From the NCBI RefSeq assembly GCF_019278465.1, contig NZ_CP058983.1, positions 1,239,501-1,303,500 of the forward strand: 64,000 bases of DNA, in the 5' to 3' direction. The stretch is from Tenacibaculum sp. AHE14PA. GTDB lineage: Bacteria; Bacteroidota; Bacteroidia; Flavobacteriales; Flavobacteriaceae. How positions within the stretch are numbered: position 1 is the stretch's first letter; every line of letters begins with the position of its first letter. The notes under the pieces are model-generated. The model did not search any database and had not been told where the DNA came from. It worked only from the letters and a program-made list of their open reading frames with translations. Position numbers and translations under genes: made by a program. Shown here piece by piece: positions 46,324 to 63,027 of this stretch.

Positions 46324-46410
46324 TATTCTTGAAACCATCCAACAAAAAAACAAACTACTGATTTAAAACAACTTAACTAAAATTAACTACATATATTATC
46401 AATCATTTTG

Positions 46411-46418
46411 TATATTTG
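46411..46418 (+). promoter_or_regulatory. Candidate -7 box (TATATTTG) of the recombinase gene
   Basis: Exact TAnnTTTG, 7 bp before the recombinase ATG (46426), implying a very short leader. No clear -33 element. Confidence 0.45.
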
Positions 46419-46425
46419 GTAGTAT

Positions 46426-47613
46426 ATGAAAACTGAATCAACACCAAAAAAAGTAATTTCTGTAAAAAAAACATTGCATAGAAAAAAAGTAGTTTTATTA
46501 CTAACTTTTAAATATGATGATGTTATAATTAACCATATTAGGAGTTTAAAAAAATTTACTTGGAGTAAAACTCTACAAGGATGGGTTAGCCCTTTTACTG
46601 ATAAAACATTTTCTGACATACAACATCTTTTAAGTGATATTGCTGATATTAAAGTAGATGAATCGGTTACTAAAAAACTATATCACAGAGGTGTAAAAAC
46701 CGAACGTAAACTTACAAGCGCGAACAAAGAAATTATTCGGAATTATGTGAAATATTTGCGAGGTAAACGTTACAGTGAAAGCACGGTGCTTACGTATTTT
46801 ACTTTTATTGCTGATTTTATTGATTTTAGTCAGCCTGCACCAATCGAATCACTCACCAATAAGAATGTTGAGCTATTTATTGAAGCCATTTTTATTACCA
46901 GGAACTACAGTATAAGCTCGCAGCGACAATTTATAAGTGCTTTAAAATTGTTTGTTGTTTATTATCCTAAATGTAATATTGAGTCACTTACTTTAGAAAG
47001 ACCTAAAACCTCGAGGAAATTACCTTCCGTTTTATCACAACAAGAAGTTGTAACCTTATTACAAGTTACCAAAAACTTAAAACACCGTGCTATTTTGGCA
47101 ATGTTATATTCTGCCGGATTACGAATTGGAGAATTAACCAAACTCGAGTTAAGACATATTGATGTTACTAGAAGACAATTATTTGTACAAAACGGAAAAG
47201 GAAGAAAAGACCGGTATGTAATTTTAGCAGACAGTTTTTTACCTTTATTACAAAACTATATTAGCACTTATGTGCCGAAACGTTTTTTTGTTGAAAGCCC
47301 AACCGGAACAAAATATTCTGAAAGTAGCATTCGAAAATTCTTGCACACCTCTACCCGACTTGCCAACATAAAAAAACATGTTACTCCGCATACATTAAGG
47401 CACAGTTATGCTACACATTTATTAGAAAACGGTATTGGTTTACGTCATATTCAGGAATTATTAGGCCATGCAAAGCCAGAAACGACGATGATTTATACAC
47501 ACGTAGCTAAAAAGGATTTATTAGAAATAAAGAGTCCGCTAGACACTATATTATTGAGCCTACAAAAAAACACTTCAGAATCAGATCAGTTTTTAAACTC
47601 TAGAAAGGTTTAA
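46426..47613 (+). CDS. Xer-like tyrosine recombinase, candidate cassette integrase
   Basis: A 395-residue site-specific recombinase. Catalytic residues are all present: R233 (SAGLRIGEL), K258 (GKGRKDR), H322 and R325 (PHTLRHSYATHL), H348 (LLGHAKPET) and Y357 (MIYTHV). A core-binding domain spans about 95-185. The first ~80 residues form an extra domain (FKYDDVIINHIRSL, then W..TLQGWVSPF) that looks HARP-like. The K258-H322 distance of 64 residues is like XerD (72) and leaves no room for the IntI-specific insert (about 106 in IntI1). The C-terminal EIKSPLD does resemble the RSPLD tail of integron integrases. It is co-oriented with the cassettes. Confidence 0.9.
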   Translation: MKTESTPKKVISVKKTLHRKKVVLLLTFKYDDVIINHIRSLKKFTWSKTLQGWVSPFTDKTFSDIQHLLSDIADIKVDESVTKKLYHRGVKTERKLTSANKEIIRNYVKYLRGKRYSESTVLTYFTFIADFIDFSQPAPIESLTNKNVELFIEAIFITRNYSISSQRQFISALKLFVVYYPKCNIESLTLERPKTSRKLPSVLSQQEVVTLLQVTKNLKHRAILAMLYSAGLRIGELTKLELRHIDVTRRQLFVQNGKGRKDRYVILADSFLPLLQNYISTYVPKRFFVESPTGTKYSESSIRKFLHTSTRLANIKKHVTPHTLRHSYATHLLENGIGLRHIQELLGHAKPETTMIYTHVAKKDLLEIKSPLDTILLSLQKNTSESDQFLNSRKV

Positions 47614-47779
47614 GAAAAATAATGCCAATTATTTTTATATATTAGTAGCTCTTAAAAAAACATTTTATTGCTATGAAATGCATTTTTTAAGAGCTGATAA
47701 ACAAGAACAAAAGTTCCTTTTATCGGGAACTATATATTAAAAAAGAGGAAGTTATTTCTCTATATAACGAGTTGGGCAC
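47614..47779 (+). other. Candidate attI region between recombinase and first cassette
   Basis: Non-coding. It contains a 13-bp inverted repeat AGCTCTTAAAAAA/TTTTTTAAGAGCT (47647-47659 and 47683-47695), a second one AGTTCC/GGAACT (47712-47731), and ends at the first junction GTTGGGCAC (47771-47779), preceded by ATAACga. The large hairpin could also be the recombinase terminator, though no T run follows. No TAnnTTTG promoter facing the cassettes is visible. Confidence 0.5.
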
Positions 47780-47791
47780 AATTAAAAAAAA

Positions 47792-48454
47792 GTGGAAGAA
47801 AAAGAAACATTTGATAGAATTCTTAATTTAATTAGTTCAGACGACTTTCCAAAAGTTATGTCGGAAATGAAAAAATTAGATTCTAAAGCCAAAGATAGAT
47901 TAAATCTATTTCTCGCTAATAGAACTTTACATACCGAATCAGCAAGATACAGAGGTCGTGTTGTAGAAATGAGCATTTATCTTGAATTAATTTTAGCAAA
48001 ATTATTATCTCAATATTTTGCAAAAGATGAAAAAAAAGAATTACTCAATTCAATGGTTTTTGATAGAATGGACTTACAAAGAAAACTGAACACTTTAAAA
48101 AACATTCTTAAAACCCAACAACCCAAAATATGGAAAACGGAACAATCAAATTTGAAAAAAATTGACAAGTTAATTTCATTCAGAAACAATATCGCTCATT
48201 CTGTATTAAATTCATCGCCCGAATATTCTGAGAAAATCAGAAAAAAAGTTAACCAAATGACAAAAGAAGGAAAGACTGCAAACCATCTTGACGAAATCGA
48301 ATTTGGCTTTTACGAAAATCATCAATGGATATTTAAAACAATAAAATATTCAGAGGTCGAGGAATATCATAAAGGAATTTATGACGGAATAAGTAACATT
48401 GAAAATATTGGAAAACAAATAATTCCGAATTTTGAATCAACAGCTGAAAATTAA
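47792..48454 (+). CDS. Cassette 1: HEPN-like protein with RNNIAH motif
   Basis: A 220-residue helical protein starting at GTG (47792), 21 bp inside the cassette; the next in-frame ATG is at codon 43 or so and would remove conserved-looking helices. The phrase LISFRNNIAHSVL contains R131-N-N-I-A-H136, the Rx4H signature of HEPN RNases with the usual polar residue after R. No adjacent MNT nucleotidyltransferase is present in the cassette. It is repeated identically as cassette 6. A ribonuclease toxin or abortive-infection effector is plausible but unproven; many RNNIAH proteins are uncharacterised. Confidence 0.6.
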   Translation: MEEKETFDRILNLISSDDFPKVMSEMKKLDSKAKDRLNLFLANRTLHTESARYRGRVVEMSIYLELILAKLLSQYFAKDEKKELLNSMVFDRMDLQRKLNTLKNILKTQQPKIWKTEQSNLKKIDKLISFRNNIAHSVLNSSPEYSEKIRKKVNQMTKEGKTANHLDEIEFGFYENHQWIFKTIKYSEVEEYHKGIYDGISNIENIGKQIIPNFESTAEN

Positions 48455-48460
48455 ATAACT

Positions 48461-48592
48461 GTGCCCAACACCGTGCATAATTCATTGCTTACAAAGTTTT
48501 TCCTACGGAAAAACCTCGCGGCCTTCAAAGGCTTGTAATTGTCTACTATTTATTCGCTAAATTCACGCAAACAAATCATGCACAAACACGTT
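48461..48592 (+). repeat. attC-like site 1 (end of cassette 1)
   Basis: It opens with GTGCCCAAC, complementary to the cassette start GTTGGGCAC. The outer stem GTGCATAATT pairs with AATCATGCAC near the 3' end, and an inner hairpin GTTTTTCC/GGAAAAAC is present. It ends at GTT 48590. Identical to site 6. Confidence 0.85.
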
Positions 48593-48629
48593 ATGTGCAA
48601 GCTGAAGAAAAATTCGAACTAACGACAAA

Positions 48630-49145
48630 ATGACTGAACAATCAATAATAAAACAGATTGGAAAACCTGCTGAAATCGATTTACGAAAACCGAAAGCGAT
48701 TGGAAGTACAGGATTTTATTTAAAGTCATTTAAAACTAAAAATCCCGAGAACGAATCTCTAAAATTGGAATCGAAATGCAACTTTGAAAAGCGAACTGGC
48801 GGAATTTTATTACGTGCGAATTATTCCAATAAATTAACGACCATTCCCATTACAAATGAAAATATAATCGAAATTACTCTAAAGCGTGGAAAAGAAAATA
48901 TTGACCCATTTTTTCTCTCGCCAATGTGGTTTTTTTTAAAACTCGGAGTTTCTAAATTATACGCTCGATATTTTAGATTTAGACTTCACGAATATTCAAT
49001 TGACCAAATGGAACTGAATATCAAAACGACTGATTATGAAATGGATTTCATTGCAAACGGATATTTATTTGAGCGACAGTTGAGTTTCTTTGAGAATTTG
49101 AATTACGGAATTAAATTAAAAACGGAAATAAAAGCCAGCACATAA
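48630..49145 (+). CDS. Cassette 2: hypothetical protein
   Basis: A 171-residue protein of unknown family, mixed alpha/beta, no signal peptide. A hydrophobic stretch at about 95-110 (PFFLSPMWFFLKLGVSKLYA) might be membrane-associated or buried. Its TAA stop (49143-49145) is formed by the attC core GCACATAAC, so the reading frame runs to the recombination core. It begins 39 bp after the cassette start. It is the only gene of the cassette. No function can be assigned. Confidence 0.6.
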   Translation: MTEQSIIKQIGKPAEIDLRKPKAIGSTGFYLKSFKTKNPENESLKLESKCNFEKRTGGILLRANYSNKLTTIPITNENIIEITLKRGKENIDPFFLSPMWFFLKLGVSKLYARYFRFRLHEYSIDQMELNIKTTDYEMDFIANGYLFERQLSFFENLNYGIKLKTEIKAST

Positions 49146-49269
49146 CACCGTGCATAATTCATTAAGGTGGAATTTCCTTGCGGAATTTCCTCGCACTTTT
49201 ATTATCTTTCGTTCAAATTCGGAAAAGTGCTGCGCTCTTTTCCTTAACGAAATCATGCACAAATACGTT
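49138..49269 (+). repeat. attC-like site 2 (end of cassette 2)
   Basis: It opens with GCACATAAC (complement of the cassette start GTTATGTGC). The outer stem GTGCATAATTC pairs with AATCATGCAC; the inner near-palindrome is GGAATTTCC-ttgc-GGAATTTCC. It ends at GTT 49267. Confidence 0.83.
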
Positions 49270-49294
49270 ACCTGCAAGCTAAAAAAACGACAAT

Positions 49295-50104
49295 ATGAAA
49301 ACATTCCTATTTGCGTGGAATCCGAAAAAATGGAATTGGACAACTCTTGAACAGAGCATTGACCAAATCGAACAAACAGGTCGAGCGACAGAAAAATGGA
49401 GTGTAATAAGTCATAAAAAAATCCAACCAGGAGACAGAGCATTCTTAATGAGACTTGGCGAAGAACCAAAAGGAATAATGGCTGCCGGTTTTGTTGCGAC
49501 ACCACCATTTTTATCAAAACATTGGAGCGGAGAAGATAAATTAGTGAATCGTGTAATGATTGACTTTGAAGTAATTTTAAATCCCGAAAAAGAACCGCTA
49601 TTGAGTCTTGATATCTTAAATCAAGGCAATTTGGCAAAAGTAAATTGGACACCGCAATCTTCAGGAATTGAGATTAATCCAGATGTAACGGACGAATTAG
49701 AAGCCGTATGGTTTGACTTTTTGACAACTCAAGAAATCAGACATAACCCTTTCAAAGAAACTGAAAAGGACGAACAGAAAGTTTACACAGAAGGAACACC
49801 AAATCAAGTTTTAGTAACTAAATATGAACGAAATCCATTCGCAAGAAAAACTTGTATTGAGCATTACGGACTTTCTTGTTCAGTTTGCGAATTTAACTTT
49901 GAAAAAGAATACGGAGAATTAGGTAAAGACTTTATTCACGTTCACCATTTAAGACAAGTCGCAGACATTGGAAAAGAATATAAAATCGACCCAATTAAGG
50001 ACTTGAGACCTGTTTGTCCGAACTGCCACGCAATGATTCATAAACGAAAAGAACCATACACGATTGACGAACTGAAAGAAAAAATGAAAAAAGCCAGCAG
50101 GTAA
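49295..50104 (+). CDS. Cassette 3: EVE-HNH endonuclease, likely modification-dependent restriction enzyme
   Basis: A 269-residue two-domain protein. The N-terminal ~145 residues read as an EVE/PUA-like modified-base reader (LFAWNPKKWNW; WSVISHKKIQPGDRAFLMR; GIMAAGFV). The C-terminal HNH nuclease has a zinc knuckle (C195/C198 in CSVCEF; C241/C244 in CPNCH) and catalytic H217-H218 in HVHHLRQ. EVE-HNH proteins are known type IV-like restriction enzymes that cut DNA carrying modified cytosines. The TAA stop lies inside the attC core GCAGGTAAC. An identical copy is cassette 11. Confidence 0.82.
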   Translation: MKTFLFAWNPKKWNWTTLEQSIDQIEQTGRATEKWSVISHKKIQPGDRAFLMRLGEEPKGIMAAGFVATPPFLSKHWSGEDKLVNRVMIDFEVILNPEKEPLLSLDILNQGNLAKVNWTPQSSGIEINPDVTDELEAVWFDFLTTQEIRHNPFKETEKDEQKVYTEGTPNQVLVTKYERNPFARKTCIEHYGLSCSVCEFNFEKEYGELGKDFIHVHHLRQVADIGKEYKIDPIKDLRPVCPNCHAMIHKRKEPYTIDELKEKMKKASR

Positions 50105-50225
50105 CAATGTATATAAAAAATAGGCGAAATAGTAGTGAAATCAAGGGTTTTAGCTTGTATCAAAGTTCAGGTTTAACTGAAAGTTTGGTGCTTCGAAATC
50201 GCCTACTTTTCATATACTAACCGTT
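50097..50225 (+). repeat. attC-like site 3 (end of cassette 3), second structural subtype
   Basis: It opens with GCAGGTAAC (complement of GTTACCTGC). The body differs from the other sites: TAGGCGA pairs with TCGCCTA, TATAT arms lie outside, and an inner TTCAG/CTGAA hairpin is present. It ends at GTT 50223. Identical to site 11. Confidence 0.82.
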
Positions 50226-50646
50226 AGCAAAAACTTTAGAAATCACTCAGGCGGAACTAATTTTGAGTTAAAAATCTTAAATTTATTATTCAATAATTTT
50301 CTTTTCATAACATTGGAAAAATAACAAACAAAAGTTAAGAGCAACTTTACGGAATTCTAAACATTAACAACAACAGAACTGAACGCAAAAAATCACTCTA
50401 GCGGAATTTAGCAACTTTGCGGAGTTGAAAACCTTTGCGGAATTGTTTACTCAAACTCTGAATTTTGAAAATATTGAAAAACTAAAATGGAATTATTAAT
50501 CGAAAAAAACGCATTTGCTAACAACTTGTATATAAAAATTGCTTTATTTTAGCTAAACTAAATAGGCTGTGCTTTTTTACTAAGTCCAATTTTCCTGCGG
50601 AAAATTCGCCGAGCTCTTAAAAAGCAACTTTCTATACAAAAAACCG
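50224..50646 (+). other. Cassette 4: 423 bp with no convincing ORF
   Basis: Start GTTAGCAAA (50223) is matched by TTTGCTAAC (50514). No plus-strand ORF with a plausible start is present. Short GCGGAA/GCGGAG motifs recur about four times. It may be a decayed gene, a regulatory or RNA cassette, or a promoter-bearing cassette. Confidence 0.7.
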
Positions 50647-50648
50647 TT
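50514..50648 (+). repeat. attC-like site 4 (end of cassette 4)
   Basis: It opens with TTTGCTAAC; the inner hairpin AATTTTCC-tgc-GGAAAATT is at 50588-50606; it ends at GTT 50646. The outer TTGTATA arm pairs with TATACAA upstream of the junction. Confidence 0.82.
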
Positions 50649-51142
50649 GGGTTTCATTAGCGGAAACCGTTAAAATTGAACATTTTTAGCTTTTAAAGTG
50701 AATTTTTACAATGTTGGAAAAATTTACAGAAAAGCTATTTTGGAATTTAATTACAACTCAAAAAAAGTAGCTTGAACAATTTAGTTTTTTAAGTCTATTT
50801 TTTACAAATAGAAAAATTCCCGTTTAGAATTGTTTCGTTAAATAAAAATCTAAAACTGGAGAGTTTTGAAATCAAATTACAAACTTTTAGAGTTTTGAGA
50901 AGTTTTGAAAATTGAGTTGAATACCTAAACGTGGAAATCAAAACAGCGGAATTAGAATCTTTGCGGAAATAATAACTGAAAATGAAAATAGAACGGAAAA
51001 ACCATAAAACGAAAACCCAACAAGGTGCATAATTCATTAAGGTGGAACTTCCTTGCGGAATTTCCTCGCACTTTTATTATCTTTCGTTCAAATTCGGAAA
51101 AGCGCTGCACTCTTTTCCTTAACAAAACCATGCACAAAGCCG
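50647..51142 (+). other. Cassette 5: 496 bp with no convincing ORF
   Basis: Start GTTGGGTTT (50646) is matched by AAACCCAAC (51013). No plus-strand ORF. A minus-strand open frame starts inside the attC site and was not accepted. GCGGAA motifs recur as in cassette 4, so the two may derive from a common ancestor. Confidence 0.7.
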
Positions 51143-51144
51143 TT
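51013..51144 (+). repeat. attC-like site 5 (end of cassette 5)
   Basis: It opens with AAACCCAAC; the body is nearly the same as site 2 (GGAACTTCC-ttgc-GGAATTTCC); the outer arm GTGCATAATTC faces CATGCAC; it ends at GTT 51142. Confidence 0.82.
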
Positions 51145-51162
51145 GGGCACAATTAAAAAAAA

Positions 51163-51825
51163 GTGGAAGAAAAAGAAACATTTGATAGAATTCTTAATTT
51201 AATTAGTTCAGACGACTTTCCAAAAGTTATGTCGGAAATGAAAAAATTAGATTCTAAAGCCAAAGATAGATTAAATCTATTTCTCGCTAATAGAACTTTA
51301 CATACCGAATCAGCAAGATACAGAGGTCGTGTTGTAGAAATGAGCATTTATCTTGAATTAATTTTAGCAAAATTATTATCTCAATATTTTGCAAAAGATG
51401 AAAAAAAAGAATTACTCAATTCAATGGTTTTTGATAGAATGGACTTACAAAGAAAACTGAACACTTTAAAAAACATTCTTAAAACCCAACAACCCAAAAT
51501 ATGGAAAACGGAACAATCAAATTTGAAAAAAATTGACAAGTTAATTTCATTCAGAAACAATATCGCTCATTCTGTATTAAATTCATCGCCCGAATATTCT
51601 GAGAAAATCAGAAAAAAAGTTAACCAAATGACAAAAGAAGGAAAGACTGCAAACCATCTTGACGAAATCGAATTTGGCTTTTACGAAAATCATCAATGGA
51701 TATTTAAAACAATAAAATATTCAGAGGTCGAGGAATATCATAAAGGAATTTATGACGGAATAAGTAACATTGAAAATATTGGAAAACAAATAATTCCGAA
51801 TTTTGAATCAACAGCTGAAAATTAA
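51163..51825 (+). CDS. Cassette 6: second, identical copy of the HEPN-like protein
   Basis: The predicted 220-residue product is identical to the one at 47792-48454, including RNNIAH at 131-136 and the GTG start. The entire 819-bp cassettes, including their attC-like sites, appear the same base for base by eye. Only the flanking cassettes differ, so the copy arose recently by cassette movement rather than by local tandem duplication. Confidence 0.62.
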   Translation: MEEKETFDRILNLISSDDFPKVMSEMKKLDSKAKDRLNLFLANRTLHTESARYRGRVVEMSIYLELILAKLLSQYFAKDEKKELLNSMVFDRMDLQRKLNTLKNILKTQQPKIWKTEQSNLKKIDKLISFRNNIAHSVLNSSPEYSEKIRKKVNQMTKEGKTANHLDEIEFGFYENHQWIFKTIKYSEVEEYHKGIYDGISNIENIGKQIIPNFESTAEN

Positions 51826-51831
51826 ATAACT

Positions 51832-51963
51832 GTGCCCAACACCGTGCATAATTCATTGCTTACAAAGTTTTTCCTACGGAAAAACCTCGCGGCCTTCAAA
51901 GGCTTGTAATTGTCTACTATTTATTCGCTAAATTCACGCAAACAAATCATGCACAAACACGTT
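51832..51963 (+). repeat. attC-like site 6 (end of cassette 6)
   Basis: Same sequence as site 1, but joined to a different next cassette (GTTAGCTAC at 51961). Confidence 0.85.
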
Positions 51964-51972
51964 AGCTACAAT

Positions 51973-52557
51973 ATGAACGAAAAAATGAATGATAGAAAAA
52001 ATATAATAATTTCTTTTAAATCAAATTATGGAGAAAGAAAAAAAGGAATTGAGAAGAGAATACAATATTTGAAAGGAATGAGTATTTTGAATTTAGTACT
52101 TACTCTTTTATGTGGTGGAATTCTAATTTCATCAATTATTTCTGAATTATTTGGTTACACTATATTTAGATGGGAAAAAACTGGACTTTTAGCTATCTTA
52201 AGTTTAAGTTTTGTATTAAATCTTCCAAATGAATTATATGAACTTAAACTATTAAATCATTTGAAAAAAATAAATTCTAAACCTGAATTTAATGGAATTG
52301 ATAAACTTAATAGTGAATTAAAAAAAATGATTGACAAACTTAATAATAGATTTAAAAATAATTGGAGCGTCATAGTATTAGCAATCTTGATTTTGATTAT
52401 GGGAATTTGGCAAATGGGTTTTGACAATAATAACCCATATTGGAATTATATGAAATTACCTATTTTAGTATTTTATGGAATAATTATTTTTCGTTTTATA
52501 ATTACGAATAGAAAACTGAATGAAAATATTGAAAAAACGGAAAAATACTGTAGCTAA
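51973..52557 (+). CDS. Cassette 7: multi-spanning membrane protein, unknown
   Basis: A 194-residue protein from ATG 51973, 12 bp into the cassette; an open frame extends upstream through the attC site but would need a start inside it, so I rejected that. Four hydrophobic segments are grouped in two pairs (ILNLVLTLLCGGILISSII and LLAILSLSFVL; then VIVLAILILIMGIW and LPILVFYGIIIFRFII), with a charged ~60-residue linker rich in Lys/Asn/Leu that could be coiled coil. The TAA stop is part of the core GTAGCTAAC. No family is recognised. Confidence 0.6.
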   Translation: MNEKMNDRKNIIISFKSNYGERKKGIEKRIQYLKGMSILNLVLTLLCGGILISSIISELFGYTIFRWEKTGLLAILSLSFVLNLPNELYELKLLNHLKKINSKPEFNGIDKLNSELKKMIDKLNNRFKNNWSVIVLAILILIMGIWQMGFDNNNPYWNYMKLPILVFYGIIIFRFIITNRKLNENIEKTEKYCS

Positions 52558-52679
52558 CACCGTATAAAATTAATTGCTGGTTTTAGCCTATTTACGAAAG
52601 TCCTCGCGGACTTTCTATCTGTGTTTTATTTGCTAACTTTAGTGCTTAAAACACGCAACTAATCTTATACAATCACGTT
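52550..52679 (+). repeat. attC-like site 7 (end of cassette 7)
   Basis: It opens with GTAGCTAAC; the inner hairpin GAAAGTCC-tcgc-GGACTTTC is perfect and covaries with the AATCC/GGATT version in sites 8-10; it ends at GTT 52677. Confidence 0.85.
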
Positions 52680-52709
52680 GTAAGTAATGCCGAAAAACCC
52701 AGAAACCAA

Positions 52710-53504
52710 GTGAATAAAACAATATTTGAAATTACCAAAATGGATTGTCCTTCAGAGGAAAATCTTATCCGAATGAAATTGGACGGAATTTCAAGCATTG
52801 CGAATTTGGACTTTGATATTCCGAATCGAAAATTGACCGTTTTTCACAGCGGAGAAATTGACCAAATCGAAAAGTCCGTTATCGAATTGAATTTAGGTGG
52901 AAAAAAAATCTCAACGGAACAAACCGACCAAACGGAATTTAAAGAAAACGAAAATCAGAAAAAACTACTTTGGTCTGTACTTGCCATAAATTTTGCTTTT
53001 TTCATTATTGAAATGACAACAGGAATTATCTCAAAATCTATGGGACTTGTTGCCGATAGTTTAGATATGCTTGCGGACAGTTTTGTGTACGGAATTAGTT
53101 TGTTTGCGGTTGGCGGAACAGTAATAAAGAAAAAACGGATTGCCAAACTTGCTGGATATTTTCAAATAATACTTGCGATTATTGGATTTGTAGAAGTCTT
53201 GAGAAGATTTTTCGGAAACGAGAAACTTCCCGATTTTTCAACAATGATTATAGTTTCGATTTTTGCACTTATTGCAAACGGAATTTGTCTTTATATTTTG
53301 CAAAAGTCAAAGAGCAAAGAAGAAGCACATATGAAAGCGAGTATGATTTTCACTTCGAATGACGTGATTATCAATTTGGGAGTAATTATTGCAGGAATTT
53401 TAGTGCATTATTTGAGTTCTAATAAACCTGATTTGATTATCGGAACAATTGTTTTTGCATTGGTAATTCAAGGAGCATTTCGGATTTTGAAATTAAGTAA
53501 GTGA
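52710..53504 (+). CDS. Cassette 8: cation diffusion facilitator transporter with N-terminal HMA-like domain
   Basis: A 264-residue protein from GTG 52710. Residues 1-70 look like a heavy-metal-associated-type fold (TIFEITKMDCPSEENLIRM) with a single cysteine instead of CxxC. The membrane part has about six helices; FFIIEMTTGIISKSMGLVADSLDMLADS is the CDF TM2 region with the D-x3-D pattern (split here as GLVADSLDMLADS). The usual long cytosolic C-terminal domain is missing. Likely exports a divalent metal; specificity unknown. It ends 14 bp before the attC core. Confidence 0.78.
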   Translation: MNKTIFEITKMDCPSEENLIRMKLDGISSIANLDFDIPNRKLTVFHSGEIDQIEKSVIELNLGGKKISTEQTDQTEFKENENQKKLLWSVLAINFAFFIIEMTTGIISKSMGLVADSLDMLADSFVYGISLFAVGGTVIKKKRIAKLAGYFQIILAIIGFVEVLRRFFGNEKLPDFSTMIIVSIFALIANGICLYILQKSKSKEEAHMKASMIFTSNDVIINLGVIIAGILVHYLSSNKPDLIIGTIVFALVIQGAFRILKLSK

Positions 53505-53518
53505 ACTAAAAAAGCACT

Positions 53519-53647
53519 ACTTACAACAACGTGTATAATTAATGGCTGGTTCTCGCCTACTTACGAAAATCCTCGCGGATTTTCTATTCGGTTTTTATTT
53601 GCTAAATTAGGTGCTTAAACACGCAACTAATCATACACAAAACCGTT
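53519..53647 (+). repeat. attC-like site 8 (end of cassette 8)
   Basis: It opens with ACTTACAAC; the outer stem GTGTATAATTA pairs with TAATCATACAC; the inner hairpin is GAAAATCC-tcgc-GGATTTTC; it ends at GTT 53645. Nearly identical to sites 9 and 10. Confidence 0.85.
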
Positions 53648-53697
53648 GTGCCCAATTAAAAAATCCGTTTCATAACATTATTCAGATTAAATGATTG

Positions 53698-53727
53698 TAT
53701 CTTTGATAGTATCAAATGATAGTATCA
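53698..53727 (+). promoter_or_regulatory. Cassette-borne promoter and tandem palindromic operators of the Fic gene
   Basis: The -7 box TATCTTTG (53698-53705) overlaps the palindrome TTTGATAGTATCAAA (53702-53716), directly followed by a second, TGATAGTATCA (53717-53727), just before the ATG at 53732. The layout suggests autoregulation, possibly by the winged-helix C-terminus of the Fic protein itself. Confidence 0.6.
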
Positions 53728-53731
53728 AAAA

Positions 53732-54685: not shown

Positions 54686-54687
54686 CT

Positions 54688-54816
54688 GGGCACAACACCG
54701 TATATAATTTATTACTAGTTCTAGCCTACTTACGAAAATCCTAGCGGATTTTCTATTCGGTTTTTATTTGTTAACTTAGTTGCTTAACCACGCAACAAAC
54801 CATATACAAACACGTT
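54688..54816 (+). repeat. attC-like site 9 (end of cassette 9)
   Basis: It opens with GGGCACAAC (complement of GTTGTGCCC); inner hairpin GAAAATCC-tagc-GGATTTTC; outer arm GTATATAATTT with CATATAC; ends at GTT 54814. Confidence 0.85.
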
Positions 54817-54847
54817 AGCCACAAGCTCTGAAAAGCCACCACACAGT

Positions 54848-54894
54848 CAAGCACATTTTATTTTGCTCGTGCCTCACAAAATAAAAAGAGCTTG
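54848..54894 (+). repeat. Left hairpin flanking the R-M operon
   Basis: TTTTATTTTG (54856-54865) pairs with CAAAATAAAA (54877-54886) around the 11-nt loop CTCGTGCCTCA; outer arms are CAAGC/GCTTG. The unit is flanked by CCACCAC (54836-54842 and 54902-54908). The loop is identical to that of the right hairpin while the stem differs by compensated changes. Confidence 0.6.
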
Positions 54895-54985
54895 CCTTTT
54901 CCCACCACCGCCCGAAAATATTTTGATTTAATACACAGTTTTTTGAGATATAAATGTAAATTAGTGGATTGAAAAAACATCTGAA

Positions 54986-55183
54986 ATGAACCGAATTAAG
55001 GAAGTGTTGGAACAGAAAGGAATAAAGCAGACTTGGTTGGCGGAAAAACTAGGCAAAAGCTACAATATGGTAAATGCTTATGCTCAAAACAGACAACAAC
55101 CGAGATTGGAAACCTTAATGGAAATTGCCAATATTTTAGATGTGGACGTGAAAGAATTAATAATATCAAATAAAGAAAAATAA
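54986..55183 (+). CDS. XRE-family helix-turn-helix regulator (putative R-M control protein)
   Basis: A 65-residue protein, almost entirely an XRE HTH: IKEVLEQKGIKQTWLAEKLGKSYNMVNAYAQ, then PRLETLMEIANILDVDVKEL. Small XRE proteins at the head of R-M operons are usually C proteins that delay restriction until DNA is methylated. The 5'-nucleotidase ATG follows its stop codon directly. The ~160-bp region before it has no clear TAnnTTTG box. Confidence 0.85.
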   Translation: MNRIKEVLEQKGIKQTWLAEKLGKSYNMVNAYAQNRQQPRLETLMEIANILDVDVKELIISNKEK

Positions 55184-56152
55184 ATGCCTGTAGACTTTTC
55201 AAAAATATTAGTAGTTGGTGTATCATCTAGGGCACTCTTCAATTTAGAAGAAGAAGAGCAGATTTTTAAGGATAAAAACATTCGTGGTTTTCGAGAATTT
55301 CAGTTAGCAAACGAAGACAAGTTACTTGAAAAAGGAACTGCATTTCCATTGGTTGAAGCTTTATTAAAACTTAACACACACGTAGACAAAAAAAGTCCAA
55401 TTGTCGAAGTTGTTGTAATGTCCAGAAATAGCCCAGAAACAGGCGTAAGAGTATTAAAAGCAATCGAACATTACAATCTACCAATAACAAGATGGGCATT
55501 TTCTGGTGGCGAACCACTCTCACCATTTATAGATGCTTTTGATATTGACTTATTTCTTTCGCGAGATGAAAGTGATGTTCAGAAAATAATTGATACTACA
55601 AATTGTGCTACAGCATTAATTTATGACCCACCAGAGAATTTTGAACCTGAAACAGACAGAGTGAAATTCGCTTTTGATGCTGATGCAGTTGTTTTTTCAG
55701 AGGAATCTGAAATAATTTATAAAACCAAAAACATAGAGGCTTTTCATAAACACGAAAAAGAAAATGAAGATGTTCCTTTAAATGATGGTCCGTTTGCTGT
55801 GCTTTTAAGAAAGTTGTCAGATATTCAAGATTTTCTTCCTATCGAAAAAGAGCTTTCACCATTGAGAATAGCCATAGTTACTGCTCGTAATGCACCAAGT
55901 CATATGCGAGTTATTAAAACTTTAAGAAAATGGAATGTCTATGTTGATGAAGCCTATTTTTTGGGTGGTTTACCTAAAGAAAAAGTTCTAGAAGCATTCG
56001 GAGCTCATATCTTTTTTGATGACCAACATACACATTTAAGTGATTCCAGTAAAAAAATTCCTTGTGGTAGGGTTTTGTATAAATCAAATTCCATTTTAAA
56101 GAATTACGAAAAAGAAATTATTGTAGAACCAAAAAAAGAAAAAGAAAACTAA
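55184..56152 (+). CDS. 5'-nucleotidase (PF06189-like) inside a type III R-M operon
   Basis: A 322-residue protein resembling the cytosolic 5'-nucleotidase 1 family: ILVVGVSSRALFNLEEEEQIF, then PLVEALLKLN, VEVVVMSRNSPETGVRVLKAI, TRWAFSGGEPLSPFIDAFDIDLFLS, and a duplicated-like C-terminal half (IAIVTARNAPSHMRVIKTL, then HIFFDDQHTHLSDSS). The family dephosphorylates nucleoside monophosphates by a HAD-like mechanism. It is translationally adjacent to the regulator (0 bp) and mod (1 bp), so it belongs to the operon. Nucleotide depletion as an anti-phage arm is conceivable but is inference. Confidence 0.75.
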   Translation: MPVDFSKILVVGVSSRALFNLEEEEQIFKDKNIRGFREFQLANEDKLLEKGTAFPLVEALLKLNTHVDKKSPIVEVVVMSRNSPETGVRVLKAIEHYNLPITRWAFSGGEPLSPFIDAFDIDLFLSRDESDVQKIIDTTNCATALIYDPPENFEPETDRVKFAFDADAVVFSEESEIIYKTKNIEAFHKHEKENEDVPLNDGPFAVLLRKLSDIQDFLPIEKELSPLRIAIVTARNAPSHMRVIKTLRKWNVYVDEAYFLGGLPKEKVLEAFGAHIFFDDQHTHLSDSSKKIPCGRVLYKSNSILKNYEKEIIVEPKKEKEN

Positions 56153-56153
56153 T

Positions 56154-57797
56154 ATGCCAACACTCAATTGGATAGGAAAAGACAAAGTTATAAGTCATCA
56201 TCAAGATGTACCTTATAGAGTTTTGGAACATAAATACGGTTTTACTGCTAAAAAAGAAGAACAAACCGAACCAACTCAAAGCGGAAACAAAATAATTCAC
56301 GGAGACAATTTAGAAGCTCTAAAAAGTCTACTGCCAGAGTACGAAGGAAAAGTAAAGTGTATCTACATTGACCCACCATATAACACTGGAAAAGAAGGTT
56401 GGGCATATAATGACAATGTAAATCATCCAAAAATATTAAAATGGCTAGGAGAAGTAGTTGGTAAAGAAGGAGATGATTTGAGTCGTCACGATAAGTGGCT
56501 GTGTATGATGTATCCCAGACTAAAACTACTTCACAAATTATTGGCTAAAGATGGAATTATATTCATATCAATAGATGATTACGAATATCATAATTTACTT
56601 TCTCTAACAAATGAAATATTTGGAATAAAAAATAAAATTGCAACATCTATTTGGGATTTAGGAACTGGAACTCAAGCAGGTCATTTTGTTAGGGCTCACG
56701 AATACGTTTTAGTCTATGCTAAAAACAAGGATTTAGTGCCAAATTTTAAAGGAGGAGAAGGAATAATTAAACATTCCGCACTTAAAAAAATTAGTTATAA
56801 GAATCCAGAAAGCGAATTTACATTTCCGGTTGGAACTAGATTTGATGCACCAGATAACACAATATTAGAAAAAAATTGGGGTGGTTCAGAAAAAACAACC
56901 TTGGTGTCAGGCACTATGAAATCTGTAAAAGGAAAATTATCTAAACCTGTTACTTTGAGTGCTGGTTGGGCGATGAAATCACAAATGCAGAGTTGGTTCT
57001 ATGAAGACCCAGAAAATACTTATGATACCAAAGGGCAAAAGCTTCAAGAATTTTACTTTAACAAAAGTGGAGTTCTAACTTATATCAAAGAAAAATCAGT
57101 AACCAACCCACCAACTGTTTTAAGAGGCATTGCAAATACTAAAACTGGTAGTAGTGAATTAACGAATATAATTGGACCAAATAAATTTGACTTTCCAAAA
57201 CCTTCAGCTTTAATAAAATTCTTATTAAAGCTAGTTACTGAAAAAAATGATATTATTCTTGATTCATTTGCTGGAACAGGAACTACTGGTCAGGCTACTT
57301 TGGAATTAAACAAAGAAGATAACTCTAACCGTAAATTCATCTTAATTGAACTTGAAGATTATGCAGAAGAAGTTACCGCAGAAAGGATAAAAAGAGTCTC
57401 TAAAGGTTTCAAAACAAAAACTGTAAATTTTGAAAAACTTGGGGGAGCATTTGACTTTTACGAATTAGGCTTACCTCTTTTCGATGATAACCAAAACCTT
57501 AACGAAAAAGTTGAAACAGAAAAAATACGTGAATACATCTGGTTTTCAGAAACGAGAACACCATTTAAAAAGACAAAAGAAAATAATTACTTTTTAGGTA
57601 AAAAAGACGAATCAGTTTATTACTTCATTTACGAAAAAGATAAACTTACAACTTTAGATTTTGATGCTTTAGAACTCGTAAAAACCAAAGGAGAACAATA
57701 TGTTATTTATGCAGATAATTGTTTACTACCTAAAGACTTTATGGCAAAAAACAACATCATTTTCAAAAAAATACCAAGAGACATTACAAGATTTTAG
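56154..57797 (+). CDS. mod: Type III restriction-modification methyltransferase subunit (Mod)
   Basis: A 547-residue adenine-N6 methyltransferase of beta class: catalytic motif IV DPPYNTG (73-79) precedes AdoMet motif I DSFAGTGTTGQ (about 371-380). The central ~200 residues between the motifs form the target-recognition domain. The C-terminal part has EYIWFSETRTPF, as in other type III Mod proteins. Together with Res it would modify one strand of an asymmetric site. It sits 3 bp before res. Confidence 0.93.
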   Translation: MPTLNWIGKDKVISHHQDVPYRVLEHKYGFTAKKEEQTEPTQSGNKIIHGDNLEALKSLLPEYEGKVKCIYIDPPYNTGKEGWAYNDNVNHPKILKWLGEVVGKEGDDLSRHDKWLCMMYPRLKLLHKLLAKDGIIFISIDDYEYHNLLSLTNEIFGIKNKIATSIWDLGTGTQAGHFVRAHEYVLVYAKNKDLVPNFKGGEGIIKHSALKKISYKNPESEFTFPVGTRFDAPDNTILEKNWGGSEKTTLVSGTMKSVKGKLSKPVTLSAGWAMKSQMQSWFYEDPENTYDTKGQKLQEFYFNKSGVLTYIKEKSVTNPPTVLRGIANTKTGSSELTNIIGPNKFDFPKPSALIKFLLKLVTEKNDIILDSFAGTGTTGQATLELNKEDNSNRKFILIELEDYAEEVTAERIKRVSKGFKTKTVNFEKLGGAFDFYELGLPLFDDNQNLNEKVETEKIREYIWFSETRTPFKKTKENNYFLGKKDESVYYFIYEKDKLTTLDFDALELVKTKGEQYVIYADNCLLPKDFMAKNNIIFKKIPRDITRF

Positions 57798-57800
57798 ATT

Positions 57801-60440
57801 ATGGAATTAAAAAGCTACCAACAAAAAGTAATAGAAAATCTTGAAGAATATTTACAATATGTTCAAGAGCATAAAAATGTATCTACTGCATTTAATCAAT
57901 ATTGGGAAGATAAAATTGGACGATATAATCCTTTGGATAATACAGGAATGCAACCTTATAAAAATAACATCCCAAATTCGGCACACGTTTGTATAAAAGT
58001 ACCAACTGCTGGTGGTAAAACCTTTATTGCTGTAAACGCTTTGCGTTCCATTTTTTCTGCTTATGATACAAGTAAAACAAAAGCAGTTATATGGTTAGTT
58101 CCTTGGAGTAATTTATTACAACAAACCGTAAATGCTTTATCAAATCCAGAGCATCCTTATCGCCAAAAACTAAACGCACTTTTTAACCACAAAGTTGAGA
58201 TTTACCAAAAAGAAGATTTACTACAAGGTTCAAATTTCAATCCAACTGTAGTAAAAGAACAGTTGAGCATCTTTGTTTTGAGTTTTGCCAGTTTAAGAGC
58301 AAGAAACAAAGAAGATAGAAAAGTATATCAAGAAAACGGACAATTGGAATCTTTTGTTCCACAATACGCAAATAGAAAACATCTTTTAGATGATGTTGAC
58401 GACACAGCATTAATTAATGTTATTAGAAGTTTACATCCTGTTTTGGTAGTTGACGAAAGTCATAATGCAGAAAGTGATTTGAGCGTAGATATGCTTAAAA
58501 ACTTAAATCCATCTTTCATTTTAGATTTAACAGCAACACCAAAAGACAATAGCAACATTGTAAGTCTTGTTCCTGCAATAGAGTTAAAAAAGGAACATAT
58601 GGTTAAACTTCCTGTTATCGTTTACAACAATCACGATAAAACAGAAGTCATTAACAATGCTTTGCATTTACAACGCAAATTGGAAAACTTGGCAATAAAG
58701 CAAGAAAAAGATGGTGGAAAATACATTCGACCAATCGTTTTATTTCAAGCACAACCAAAAACAAAAAACGACAATACAACTTTTGAGAAATTAAAAGAAC
58801 AATTATTGAGTTTGGGTATTCCCGAAAATCAAATAAAAATCAAAACAGCGAATATTGATGAACTTAAAAGCATTCCAGATTTACAAAGTAAAGATTGTGA
58901 AGTTCGTTACATAATTACAATAAATGCTTTAAAAGAAGGTTGGGATTGTCCTTTTGCATACATTTTAGCGTCTTTGGCTGACAAATCGAGTGCAGTAGAT
59001 GTTGAGCAAATTTTAGGTCGTGTACTTCGTCAACCTTACGTTCAAAAACATAAAGCTTTTCAGTTAAATCTTTCCTATGTATTAACAGCTTCGGCAAAAT
59101 TTAATGACACATTACAAAGCATTGTTGAAGGTTTAAAAGCATCTGGATTTAGTGGAAATGAACATAGAGTTTCTGATAAAATGACAGAAGAAGAAAAACA
59201 AACAGAAGTTGTAAATCCTGTTGATTCTTTTCTATTTCCAGAACAACAAAAAGAAACCGAAGAAGAAACAATTGATAAAGGACGTATTTCTTTTGACCCA
59301 AATGCAAAAGAAGAAGACATTGAAGATACTTCTGTAATTACAGAAATAGAAACAATGGCAGAAGAACAAAACAAGGAATTAGAACAGCAAATACAGGAAC
59401 AAGAAAAACAACCTGTTGACGAAAATATTTTTCAAGAAATGGGAGATAAAGTTAAACGTTATCGAGTAAAAGAAGCGAATAAAGAAATTATTGATAAAAT
59501 CGATTTTCCTCAATTTTTTCTAAAAGTAGCAGCAAGTGACATTTTTGGAACAGACCAAGAATTATTAAACCGAGAATCTTTATTAAAAGATTTCAAACTT
59601 TCTGATGAAGATATAAAAATTGACTTTGACAAAATCTCATCTGATTTATACAAAGTAGATTTAACAGAAACTGTAAAAGATAATTATACACCAGATTGGG
59701 TAAAAATTGAAGAAAGTCAAGTAAAAGACCCAATTGCAGAATACATTTTGGCAAAACCAAAAGATGCCCAAATAAGCGATATAACGCATCAAATAATGCA
59801 GATTATTGGAAATATGTATCCAATTCCAGACCAAGAAATAAAAGTTTATGTTGGTAGAATATTAAACGGAATGAACGCAGAACAAATGCGTGACATTTTA
59901 GTTAGAAAATGGAGTTATACCGACAAAATAAAGGCACATATTAGAAAGTTATCAGATGCTTATGCAGAAACTAGATTTATGGATTTAATTAAATCAAAGC
60001 GAATAACTGCAAAAGAAAACTGGAAATTAGCAAAGGAAATTGTTCCTGGAAATGTTGGTTCTTCAATCGGAAATTCATTGTATGAAAAAGAAGGAACAAT
60101 GAACAACTTTGAGGAAAGAGTAATAATGGAAATCGGAACTTCTTCTAATATTGAGTTTTGGCATAGAAATTTAGAAAGAGGGAAAGGATTTTACATCAAC
60201 GGATTTAAAGCCAATCATTATCCTGACTTTATTTTGAGAACTAAATCTGGAAAAACAATTTTAATAGAAACGAAAGGAGACCATTTAGATGGTTCAGACA
60301 GCGAAGGTAAATGCAGACTCGGAAACGAATGGGAAAAACAAGCTGGACACGACTTTTCTTATTTTATGATTTTTGACAAAAAGGAAGTTGATGGAGCATT
60401 TACATTGGACAAAGCAAAGGAATTGATAAGCGGAATGTAA
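57801..60440 (+). CDS. res: Type III restriction endonuclease/helicase subunit (Res)
   Basis: An 879-residue SF2 translocase-nuclease. Walker A is PTAGGKTF (about 69-76), the DEAD-like box is VVDESHNAE (about 216), motif III is LTATPKD, and motif VI is GRVLRQPY (about 406). The last ~80 residues hold the nuclease: NHYPDF (about 806) then ETKGDH (about 822), a PD-(D/E)XK arrangement. An acidic glutamate-rich linker lies at about 470-550. All motifs appear intact, so the enzyme is probably functional. It needs Mod for site recognition. Confidence 0.93.
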   Translation: MELKSYQQKVIENLEEYLQYVQEHKNVSTAFNQYWEDKIGRYNPLDNTGMQPYKNNIPNSAHVCIKVPTAGGKTFIAVNALRSIFSAYDTSKTKAVIWLVPWSNLLQQTVNALSNPEHPYRQKLNALFNHKVEIYQKEDLLQGSNFNPTVVKEQLSIFVLSFASLRARNKEDRKVYQENGQLESFVPQYANRKHLLDDVDDTALINVIRSLHPVLVVDESHNAESDLSVDMLKNLNPSFILDLTATPKDNSNIVSLVPAIELKKEHMVKLPVIVYNNHDKTEVINNALHLQRKLENLAIKQEKDGGKYIRPIVLFQAQPKTKNDNTTFEKLKEQLLSLGIPENQIKIKTANIDELKSIPDLQSKDCEVRYIITINALKEGWDCPFAYILASLADKSSAVDVEQILGRVLRQPYVQKHKAFQLNLSYVLTASAKFNDTLQSIVEGLKASGFSGNEHRVSDKMTEEEKQTEVVNPVDSFLFPEQQKETEEETIDKGRISFDPNAKEEDIEDTSVITEIETMAEEQNKELEQQIQEQEKQPVDENIFQEMGDKVKRYRVKEANKEIIDKIDFPQFFLKVAASDIFGTDQELLNRESLLKDFKLSDEDIKIDFDKISSDLYKVDLTETVKDNYTPDWVKIEESQVKDPIAEYILAKPKDAQISDITHQIMQIIGNMYPIPDQEIKVYVGRILNGMNAEQMRDILVRKWSYTDKIKAHIRKLSDAYAETRFMDLIKSKRITAKENWKLAKEIVPGNVGSSIGNSLYEKEGTMNNFEERVIMEIGTSSNIEFWHRNLERGKGFYINGFKANHYPDFILRTKSGKTILIETKGDHLDGSDSEGKCRLGNEWEKQAGHDFSYFMIFDKKEVDGAFTLDKAKELISGM

Positions 60441-60455
60441 AAGCCAACGCTAGTG

Positions 60456-60503
60456 CAAGCACATTTAAAGTTTGCTCGTGCCTCACAAATTTAAAAGAGC
60501 TTT
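60456..60503 (+). repeat. Right hairpin flanking the R-M operon
   Basis: TTTAAA-g-TTTG pairs with CAAA-TTTAAA around the loop CTCGTGCCTCA (60475-60485), the same loop as in the left hairpin. An 11-bp direct repeat GCCAACGCTAG flanks it (60443-60453 and 60507-60517). Confidence 0.6.
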
Positions 60504-60538
60504 CACGCCAACGCTAGCAAGTTTACGGAATAAAGCCA

Positions 60539-60667
60539 GTGGCTAACAACGTGTATAATTAATGGCTGGTTCTCGCCTACTTACGAAAATCCTTGCGGAT
60601 TTTCTATTTGGTTTGTATTTGCTAAATTAGTTGCTGAAACACGCCACTAATCATACACAAACACGTT
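60539..60667 (+). repeat. attC-like site 10 (end of the R-M cassette)
   Basis: It opens with GTGGCTAAC; the body is nearly the same as site 8, with GAAAATCC-ttgc-GGATTTTC; it ends at GTT 60665. Confidence 0.85.
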
Positions 60668-60692
60668 ACCTGCAAGCTAAAAAAACGACAAT

Positions 60693-61502
60693 ATGAAAAC
60701 ATTCCTATTTGCGTGGAATCCGAAAAAATGGAATTGGACAACTCTTGAACAGAGCATTGACCAAATCGAACAAACAGGTCGAGCGACAGAAAAATGGAGT
60801 GTAATAAGTCATAAAAAAATCCAACCAGGAGACAGAGCATTCTTAATGAGACTTGGCGAAGAACCAAAAGGAATAATGGCTGCCGGTTTTGTTGCGACAC
60901 CACCATTTTTATCAAAACATTGGAGCGGAGAAGATAAATTAGTGAATCGTGTAATGATTGACTTTGAAGTAATTTTAAATCCCGAAAAAGAACCGCTATT
61001 GAGTCTTGATATCTTAAATCAAGGCAATTTGGCAAAAGTAAATTGGACACCGCAATCTTCAGGAATTGAGATTAATCCAGATGTAACGGACGAATTAGAA
61101 GCCGTATGGTTTGACTTTTTGACAACTCAAGAAATCAGACATAACCCTTTCAAAGAAACTGAAAAGGACGAACAGAAAGTTTACACAGAAGGAACACCAA
61201 ATCAAGTTTTAGTAACTAAATATGAACGAAATCCATTCGCAAGAAAAACTTGTATTGAGCATTACGGACTTTCTTGTTCAGTTTGCGAATTTAACTTTGA
61301 AAAAGAATACGGAGAATTAGGTAAAGACTTTATTCACGTTCACCATTTAAGACAAGTCGCAGACATTGGAAAAGAATATAAAATCGACCCAATTAAGGAC
61401 TTGAGACCTGTTTGTCCGAACTGCCACGCAATGATTCATAAACGAAAAGAACCATACACGATTGACGAACTGAAAGAAAAAATGAAAAAAGCCAGCAGGT
61501 AA
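60693..61502 (+). CDS. Cassette 11: second, identical copy of the EVE-HNH endonuclease
   Basis: The 269-residue product is identical to that of 49295-50104, with the same EVE reader, zinc knuckle and HNH residues. The 956-bp cassettes also appear identical, including the unusual attC subtype. The copy lies about 11 kb from the first and has different neighbours on both sides. Confidence 0.82.
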   Translation: MKTFLFAWNPKKWNWTTLEQSIDQIEQTGRATEKWSVISHKKIQPGDRAFLMRLGEEPKGIMAAGFVATPPFLSKHWSGEDKLVNRVMIDFEVILNPEKEPLLSLDILNQGNLAKVNWTPQSSGIEINPDVTDELEAVWFDFLTTQEIRHNPFKETEKDEQKVYTEGTPNQVLVTKYERNPFARKTCIEHYGLSCSVCEFNFEKEYGELGKDFIHVHHLRQVADIGKEYKIDPIKDLRPVCPNCHAMIHKRKEPYTIDELKEKMKKASR

Positions 61503-61623
61503 CAATGTATATAAAAAATAGGCGAAATAGTAGTGAAATCAAGGGTTTTAGCTTGTATCAAAGTTCAGGTTTAACTGAAAGTTTGGTGCTTCGAAATCGC
61601 CTACTTTTCATATACTAACCGTT
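61495..61623 (+). repeat. attC-like site 11 (end of cassette 11)
   Basis: Same as site 3 (GCAGGTAAC, TAGGCGA/TCGCCTA stem) but joined to a different cassette, GTTGTAAGC at 61621. Confidence 0.82.
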
Positions 61624-61632
61624 GTAAGCAAT

Positions 61633-62049
61633 ATGAGCAAAACGATAATCATAATTGGAATAATCATTTTTCTCTTCGTGATTTTCGGATTTATTCAAAA
61701 TAAGAGGAATGAAAAAAGATTGCGGAAATTAAACGAAAGCAGACCGAAACTTACACGAACGGAATACATAAGCCGACTTGTGAAAAACGGATTTGACAAG
61801 CAACTGGTTGAAATAGTTCACGACGAAATTCGAGAATTTATTCAAATGAATGATTTCTCTATTTACCCAGAAGATGATATTCACAAAATATACGGAATTG
61901 AGGATTTAGATGATATTGAACTGATTGACACAATTTGTGAAAAACTAAATTTGAGAAAAGCGGAACAGAAAGACTGTGACGAACTGAATAAAAAAATGAA
62001 AATATTCAACGCGGAATATATTCTAACTTTGATTAAAAATTTAACGTAA
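61633..62049 (+). CDS. Cassette 12: small membrane-anchored protein, unknown
   Basis: A 138-residue protein with one N-terminal hydrophobic helix (TIIIIGIIIFLFVIFGFI) and a charged cytosolic-type domain of helices (YISRLVKNGFDKQLVEIVHDEI, then PEDDIHKIYGIEDLDDIELI). The C-terminal ~90 residues faintly recall acidic acyl-carrier-like or immunity-type folds, but I cannot assign a family. It starts 11 bp into the cassette. Confidence 0.6.
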   Translation: MSKTIIIIGIIIFLFVIFGFIQNKRNEKRLRKLNESRPKLTRTEYISRLVKNGFDKQLVEIVHDEIREFIQMNDFSIYPEDDIHKIYGIEDLDDIELIDTICEKLNLRKAEQKDCDELNKKMKIFNAEYILTLIKNLT

Positions 62050-62058
62050 TAAAATACT

Positions 62059-62091
62059 GCTTACAACACCGTGTTGTGTAGATAACACTCT
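62059..62091 (+). repeat. Truncated attC-like site 12 at the right end of the array
   Basis: GCTTACAAC (62059-62067) complements the cassette start GTTGTAAGC and is followed by ACCGTG as in full sites. The sequence then diverges (TTGTGTAGATAACACTC) and the hairpin body and closing GTT are missing. Confidence 0.7.
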
Positions 62092-62204
62092 ATGTACCTT
62101 TATTTTAATAGTAATAAAAAGATTTATTAAAAAAGGGTACAACATAGGTACAACTTTTAAACTATAAAATTGAGAAGTAAAAACAATGACCTAAAAGCAT
62201 AAAA
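62092..62204. other. Right junction region of the array
   Basis: AT-rich. It contains GGTACAAC twice in direct orientation (62136-62143, 62147-62154), and TGTACCT (62093) inverted relative to AGGTACA (62146). No gene. It may be a border or attachment site of a neighbouring element; nothing decisive is visible. Confidence 0.4.
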
Positions 62205-62233
62205 AAACCGTTACAAACACATTGTAACGGTTT
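62205..62233 (-). terminator. Rho-independent terminator of the DUF6266-like gene
   Basis: AAACCGTTACAA/TTGTAACGGTTT with a 5-nt loop and a T run on the minus strand, 31 bp beyond the stop codon. Confidence 0.85.
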
Positions 62234-62263
62234 CTTATTGTATGTACTTATGCTTAAAAGTTA

Positions 62264-62905: not shown

Positions 62906-63027
62906 AACTATATAAATTTAAAATTAATACTCTCTCGGATTTGGTACGGGCTTGATATTGCTTTTAAACTTTGTTTACCTCTATAATATAACGAAAATTA
63001 TGCCACCTTGTACTTACTTTTAATCGT

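Follow-up and report, generated by a model that had tools for sequence, protein, structure and literature searches.

An integron-like cassette array beside a tyrosine recombinase apparently outside the IntI family in Tenacibaculum sp. AHE14PA

Introduction

The integron integrases (IntI) carry an additional domain near patch III, which the available text of one account presents as a defining and important feature of these enzymes (PMC9668308); strand choice depends on an extrahelical G in the Vibrio VCR site, according to the accessible portion of a second (PMC2727003). The excerpt available for IntegronFinder 2.0 lists, beyond Chlorobi and Ignavibacteriae, one complete integron in the Bacteroidetes, that of Salinibacter ruber (PMC9024848), and a Tenacibaculum genome paper that used this program, on a genome outside those searched here, gives no integrons in its available text (PMC10013915). 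A second kind of arrangement, the rAID array, is defined as a run of short co-oriented genes behind a tyrosine recombinase, with conserved motifs between the genes; its biogenesis is described as an area of active research, and the word integron is absent from the main text of that source as far as it is accessible (PMC12247911). Our study reports on a cassette array in Tenacibaculum sp. AHE14PA (Flavobacteriaceae), found in a stretch of 64,000 nucleotides (nt) of contig NZ_CP058983.1 (positions 1,239,501 to 1,303,500), hereafter the window, where it follows a tyrosine recombinase gene. The array is of integron design because the start of each cassette pairs with its far end, identical cassettes end at G|TT, and the shared flank of a relative's array breaks off there. 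Among the best-ranked matches of our literature search, which mostly did not extend to subscription papers and preprints, we found no description of such a system in Flavobacteriaceae.

Results

The original prediction placed an integron-like array at 46426-62091 of the window. Twelve cassettes do lie there, at 47771-62067; the first part of the interval, 46426-47613, is the recombinase gene, and the array runs far past the end of the window. The predicted 9-mer complementarity between the start (GTT plus 6 nt) and the R'' box at the far end of each of the twelve units was borne out, with 9-10 nt of self-complementarity in every one, and chance does not account for it: in 128 mismatched pairs, from which duplicated cassettes had been excluded, the match was 3-6 nt in 126 and 8 nt in 2. 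The same rule emerges when sites are found without reference to it, since across our own array and 20 loci of relatives at least 9 complementary nt join 159 of 200 neighbouring pairs, compared with 3 of 200 when the same cassette start is set against a wrong R'' box. A dyad site had been expected at each cassette end; there are 11 intact attC-like sites of 135-141 nt in the window, and the twelfth is split by an inserted element. Site lengths overall are 135-141 nt, with some near 200 nt. The R box had been called relaxed, but it is not fully so, because a purine follows GTT in 206 of 213 linked sites. A transposon with unrelated ends is ruled out, because the cassette ends differ from unit to unit and yet pair inside each unit. 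A plain-identity repeat search missed most of the sites. A covariance model, R1, built on 60 bottom-strand sites from 17 loci, three of these sites being from the window, recovers all 11 intact window sites (E <= 4.4e-13).

The copied and exchanged cassettes are bounded by G|TT, which is where the original prediction had proposed to look for gain and loss. Our own array holds seven pairs of 100% identical cassettes at separate positions, and identity extends only 0-2 nt to the left and 3-8 nt to the right of the G|TT edges; the exception is a two-cassette block (21-22/43-44), in which the match continues through exactly one neighbouring cassette. Outside this block the 120-nt flanks of the seven pairs show a similarity of 53-80%, where random stretches average 60% and reach at most 66%, and the higher values come from upstream flanks, which are themselves other attC sites. 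Five cassettes of our own array (c08, c09, c24, c29 and c42) have near-full copies, 79-94% identical, among 19 loci of other relatives. False links made by the script that joins cassettes by the 9-mer rule, four chains in the window outside the array and two in our own array, were dropped before cassettes were compared.

A putative attI core, ATATAAC-GA-GTT, lies at 47762-47773 on the plus strand, directly at the start of cassette 1. Of 21 loci examined, 15 were comparable and 6 were not, and in all 15 the motif ATATAAC-NN-GTT comes after the integrase. In 14 of them it coincides with the point where the first linked cassette starts; in the remaining locus, L044, it stands about 100 nt before the cassette chosen by the script. 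In seven of the 15 loci TATATTTG ends 14 nt before the attI-like GTT, and it is a candidate for the -7 box of a Bacteroidota promoter. In the relative G092, 3.2 kb that include the integrase are 92.7% identical to the window up to position 47782, just beyond the first G|TT, and 1 of its 15 linked cassettes is found nearly full-length in our own array. The conserved motif and the synteny break thus mark an attI beside the integrase, as integrons have, and we infer that cassette insertion takes place at this attI-like site.

The stem of the attC-like sites was analysed in 198 unique sites of the 213 linked, the 15 with other spacing or length being left out. Read on the top strand, the 16-base-pair (bp) stem has A.C mismatches at three positions in particular: with the first position numbered 0, position 6 carries one in 169 of the 198 sites, position 7 in 96 and position 11 in 170. 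On the bottom strand these become G.T wobbles; all 16 positions of the 198 sites together hold 466 such cells and 6 with the strands the other way round. Stability is greater for the bottom than for the top strand in 191 of 198 sites, compared with 44 of 197 neighbouring control stretches. Covariation supports the stem: in 60 sites, changes on both sides occur in 14 of 19 pairs, a level that 500 shuffles and 6 slides all failed to reach. IntI arrays of the phylum, represented by 40 sites in 5 of the 10 loci fetched, have sites of a different build, with a one-sided bulge predicted in 40 of 40 against 50 of 198 here, 0.33 G.T pairs per site against 3.03, and better arms on the bottom strand in 15 of 40 against 197 of 198. 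The AAC...GTT boxes, the stable bottom-strand hairpin and the R'' box complementary to the cassette start are those of an integron attC site; the extrahelical stem base or bases that set strand choice in integrons are not a general feature here, as the bulge count shows. We propose that bottom-strand G.T wobbles, and not extrahelical bases, tell the two strands apart.

The recombinase gene (46426-47613, plus strand) was defined by its open reading frame, by matches to Pfam and TIGR02249 and by a structure model with a mean pLDDT of 82.7. Its product of 395 amino acids has a beta-rich N-terminal domain (approximately residues 9-77), a SAM-like domain from about residue 100 and a catalytic domain that reaches to about residue 373; the Pfam scores are 131.6 bits for Phage_integrase and 54.6 bits for Phage_int_SAM_4. 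The integron integrase model TIGR02249 gives 195.1 bits, under its cut-off of 265, and the XerC and XerD equivalog models give 184.1 and 177.9 against cut-offs of 335.15 and 329.6. The distance from the KDR to the LRH motif is 58-59 residues in 50 of 50 non-IntI rows (among them L033, counted as array-associated by its label alone, and L083 and L100, each with one R1 site as its basis) against 100 in 20 of 20 IntI rows, and the IntI insert of about 41 residues is absent from the window recombinase. In two quick trees the IntI rows form a group of their own without it (SH-aLRT 100); the trees give no firm deep order among IntI, the window recombinase family and Xer. By these tested criteria of sequence, the recombinase appears not to be a member of the IntI family. 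Its nearest named proteins are from Tenacibaculum (T. retecalamus, 96% identical over 72% of the query; T. aestuariivivum, 75%; T. salmonis, 74%). The N-terminal domain has fold matches of the XPB/HARP or eIF1 type, with eIF1 and CASTOR1 matching it no less well than XPB, and on this weak fold evidence it is predicted to bind the DNA hairpin. The integrase gene is co-directional with the array, and four further tyrosine recombinases match in its own genome.

Searching with a covariance model built from the sites, as had been suggested, gave matches across the Bacteroidota. At E <= 1e-4 they occur in 94 of the 97 genomes at genus level, including every one of the 69 good ones, and in 65 of 218 at phylum level; at E <= 1e-3 they occur in 133 of 149 at family level. 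The whole 2.82-Mb contig of our own strain has 63 R1 sites at E <= 2.1e-4, of which 59 form the main array of about 78 kb (own-contig 1287961-1365329). A second small group of 4 sites lies at own-contig 874643-881551, far from the integrase. The integrase was found at E <= 1e-60 in 60 of 97 genus-level genomes; therefore, some arrays may be without an integrase. Among the integrase matches of lower identity in genus-level genomes (about 36-46%), many carry one internal stop codon, and either overshoot past a natural stop or decay of the copy would account for this. IntI itself is over cut-off in 46 of 148 phylum-level genomes, but not in any of the genomes, at least 15, that were examined from the window's family.

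Eighty named loci that contain an integrase relative were searched, and 37 have at least one R1 site; the array is co-directional with the integrase in 33 of these and opposite in 4. Four loci of Paenibacillaceae (L121, L126, L129 and L130) have downstream arrays with sites of 99-168 nt and the G|TT start/end rule, which R1 misses. To our knowledge, integrons are hardly known in Bacillota. A clade of short integrases (272-277 amino acids, without the N-terminal domain; six rows, SH-aLRT 99) has its array upstream and on the other strand. On plasmid loci R1 gives two sites in L163, five in L165, one weak site in L167 (E 0.052) and none in L164 and L166. The first of these (L163, 10810-13724 of the locus; Flagellimonas plasmid NZ_CP092416.1) has its two R1 sites upstream of a short integrase on a mobilizable plasmid, with a gene of the dihydrofolate-reductase family and erm(F) as neighbours, and resembles a reduced, mobile form of the system. 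The second (L165, 14397-22125; Chryseobacterium plasmid NZ_CP041688.1, from rainbow trout) has its five sites (E <= 0.0022) downstream of the integrase relative. Of the 10 IntI loci, nine give no R1 site at E <= 0.1. Four IntI loci (L177, L178, L181 and L182) had no chained sites of their own, and L183 held R1-like sites instead: four of these, at 2835-5510, lie within about 7 kb of the IntI gene of a true-IntI genome. From this locus, IntI and R1-type systems may share cassettes.

The cassettes of the window all lie on the plus strand; each starts at the G of GTT, and the first coordinate of each attC site is that of its R'' box. Cassette 1 (47771-48589, 819 bp; attC 48461-48598) has an open reading frame of 220 amino acids with weak CARF-HEPN-type matches and is identical to cassette 6 (51142-51960, 819 bp; attC 51832-51969). 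Cassette 2 (48590-49266, 677 bp; attC 49138-49275) encodes 171 amino acids and has an identical copy at own-contig 1340566. Cassette 3 (49267-50222, 956 bp; attC 50097-50231), with an HNH-domain reading frame and a sub-threshold EVE match, is identical to cassette 11 (60665-61620, 956 bp; attC 61495-61629). Neither cassette 4 (50223-50645, 423 bp; attC 50514-50654) nor cassette 5 (50646-51141, 496 bp; attC 51013-51150) has a sense reading frame of at least 70 amino acids; the former has an identical copy at own-contig 1344726, and the latter a 97% copy in our own array and a 93% full-length copy in G092. Cassette 7 (51961-52676, 716 bp; attC 52550-52685) encodes a predicted protein of unknown function, cassette 8 (52677-53644, 968 bp; attC 53519-53653) a protein of the cation-efflux (CDF) family, and cassette 9 (53645-54813, 1169 bp; attC 54688-54822) a Fic-domain protein, with near-full copies of the cassette in the arrays of three other genomes. 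The largest, cassette 10 (54814-60664, 5851 bp; attC 60539-60673), carries a 5'-nucleotidase-family protein (PDC-S08), a type III methyltransferase and a type III restriction subunit. In profile searches the products of the window's cassettes are thus HNH, CDF, Fic and type III restriction-modification proteins, together with several that lack any match, and the natural reading, by analogy, is that the array may act as a reservoir of accessory and defence functions, among them restriction-modification, nucleases, Fic proteins and metal efflux.

Cassette 12 runs from 61621 to its R'' box at 62059-62067, and its attC is interrupted just after. The gap that follows is an inserted element of about 15.5 kb, the left part of which fills 62068-64000 of the window; its far end is at about 1317068 of our own contig, where the array resumes. 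The 12-nt core of the split site, ACAACACCGTGT, stands at both edges, and a further tyrosine recombinase match lies at own-contig 1315714-1316175, near the far end. It is as if an element with its own tyrosine recombinase used the integron sites as its target.

Discussion

The spread of the sites found with the covariance model, the duplication and exchange of cassettes at G|TT and the conserved attI-like site all support the original interpretation of the array as an integron, here of superintegron type with about 60 co-oriented cassettes. We put the probability of integron-type cassette exchange by the adjacent recombinase at close to nine in ten, and the system likely captures and shuffles genes as integrons do. 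In the mechanism that we propose, a non-IntI tyrosine recombinase would cut and join cassettes at G|TT on folded bottom strands. It would recognize the hairpin of the bottom strand, on which the stem would be whole by virtue of up to three conserved G.T wobbles. Cassettes would be excised as circles, their ends joining into one site, and the excised cassettes would then be inserted at attI.

An ordinary IntI integron, merely unnoticed in Bacteroidota, would also have attC-like sites, an attI-like site and cassettes that behave in this way; true IntI genes do occur in the phylum, and our deep tree does not reject a clade of IntI and the window recombinase. The enzyme nevertheless scores about 70 bits below the TIGR02249 cut-off, has the short motif spacing and falls outside a fully supported IntI group, none of the 46 genomes with IntI is from the window's family (at least 15 of its genomes examined), and the sites differ from those of IntI arrays in both bulges and wobbles, so that we consider this explanation improbable. 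A different division of labour, in which XerC/D or a phage integrase moves the cassettes in trans and the adjacent recombinase has some other role, would draw on the four other tyrosine recombinases of the genome and would suit those genomes in which sites stand without a close integrase. It does not fit well with an attI-like sequence after the integrase in every one of the 15 loci compared, or with array content that changes exactly at that sequence in G092, and we hold it to be very unlikely.

The sites could instead be dispersed repeats, such as intergenic mobile repeats or terminators, with neighbouring genes duplicated by homologous recombination and no recombinase-mediated exchange. The sites are alike and could recombine homologously, and one block of two cassettes has been duplicated jointly. 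Homologous exchange, however, would set neither breakpoints at G|TT nor a start/end 9-mer particular to each cassette; it leaves the stem covariation and the strand-specific wobbles unexplained, the array begins next to the recombinase in many species, and an Rfam search of 46000-62500 gave no matches over the cut-offs. Of the explanations weighed here we judge this one the least probable, and exchange by the adjacent recombinase remains our preferred reading.

Several described systems come close to the array. Xer recombinases (XerC, XerD and XerA) act on one dif site per chromosome, whereas the window array has dozens of sites. The CALIN of Polaribacter phage P12002L contains a site that was recombined by IntI1 as its bottom strand, with no recombinants from the top strand, and the authors, in the available text, draw no link to a superintegron of the host (PMC9892861). 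In the methyltransferase cluster of this phage we find six R1 sites at E <= 0.022, one of which may be the published site; unlike the window array, the phage has no integrase.

The rAID arrays resemble the window in having a tyrosine recombinase, a co-oriented array and conserved intergenic motifs. They differ in gene content, which in rAID arrays is orphan immunity genes and in the window HNH, CDF, Fic and type III restriction-modification genes and several unmatched ones, and in that rAID arrays occur in Bacteroidales, whereas the nearest named relatives of the window are Flavobacteriaceae. A plasmid of Parabacteroides distasonis (NZ_OY725747.1; L186, 3857-10978, minus strand) carries a related recombinase and an array that fits the rAID definition, with genes annotated as type VI secretion system immunity (Tdi1), SMI1/KNR4 and hypothetical proteins. 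In this one rAID-type array, with nine cuts taken by eye from a CC|ATTA-type motif and not by complementarity, the start of each unit is complementary to its far end over 8-11 nt in 8 of 8 units, against 2-7 nt in 56 mismatched pairs; one cut reads CC|AATA, and the site that closes its unit is atypical. The would-be cut is A|TTA, 38-65 nt separate the R'' box from the cut, and R1 finds no site in this locus. Its recombinase shares the motif spacing of 59 with the window family and has an N-terminal extension of 92 residues.

We see the evidence as evenly balanced for a broader proposal: that a second, larger integron world exists beside IntI, which would take in Flavobacteriaceae, other Bacteroidota, Paenibacillaceae and the rAID arrays of the gut, and in which Xer-like recombinases without the IntI insert would use a G.T-wobble strand code and a HARP/XPB-like domain that reads the hairpin. 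Should the recombinase act in the proposed way, Flavobacteriaceae and their relatives would have a very common means of gene capture that has so far been overlooked. There would then be two ways of encoding the strand in a hairpin, and the gain of immunity genes by gut rAID arrays would become testable as recombination at A|TTA.

Measured against the IntI integrons themselves, those of class 1, the Vibrio superintegron and those of IntI genomes from other classes of the phylum, the window system has in common the G|TT cut, R'' and R' boxes with AAC and GTT, hairpin sites, an attI-like site and a co-oriented cassette array. It differs from them in a recombinase that lacks the IntI insert, has an extra N-terminal domain and is co-directional with its array, and in sites whose strand would be marked by G.T wobbles where those of the IntI integrons use an extrahelical base.

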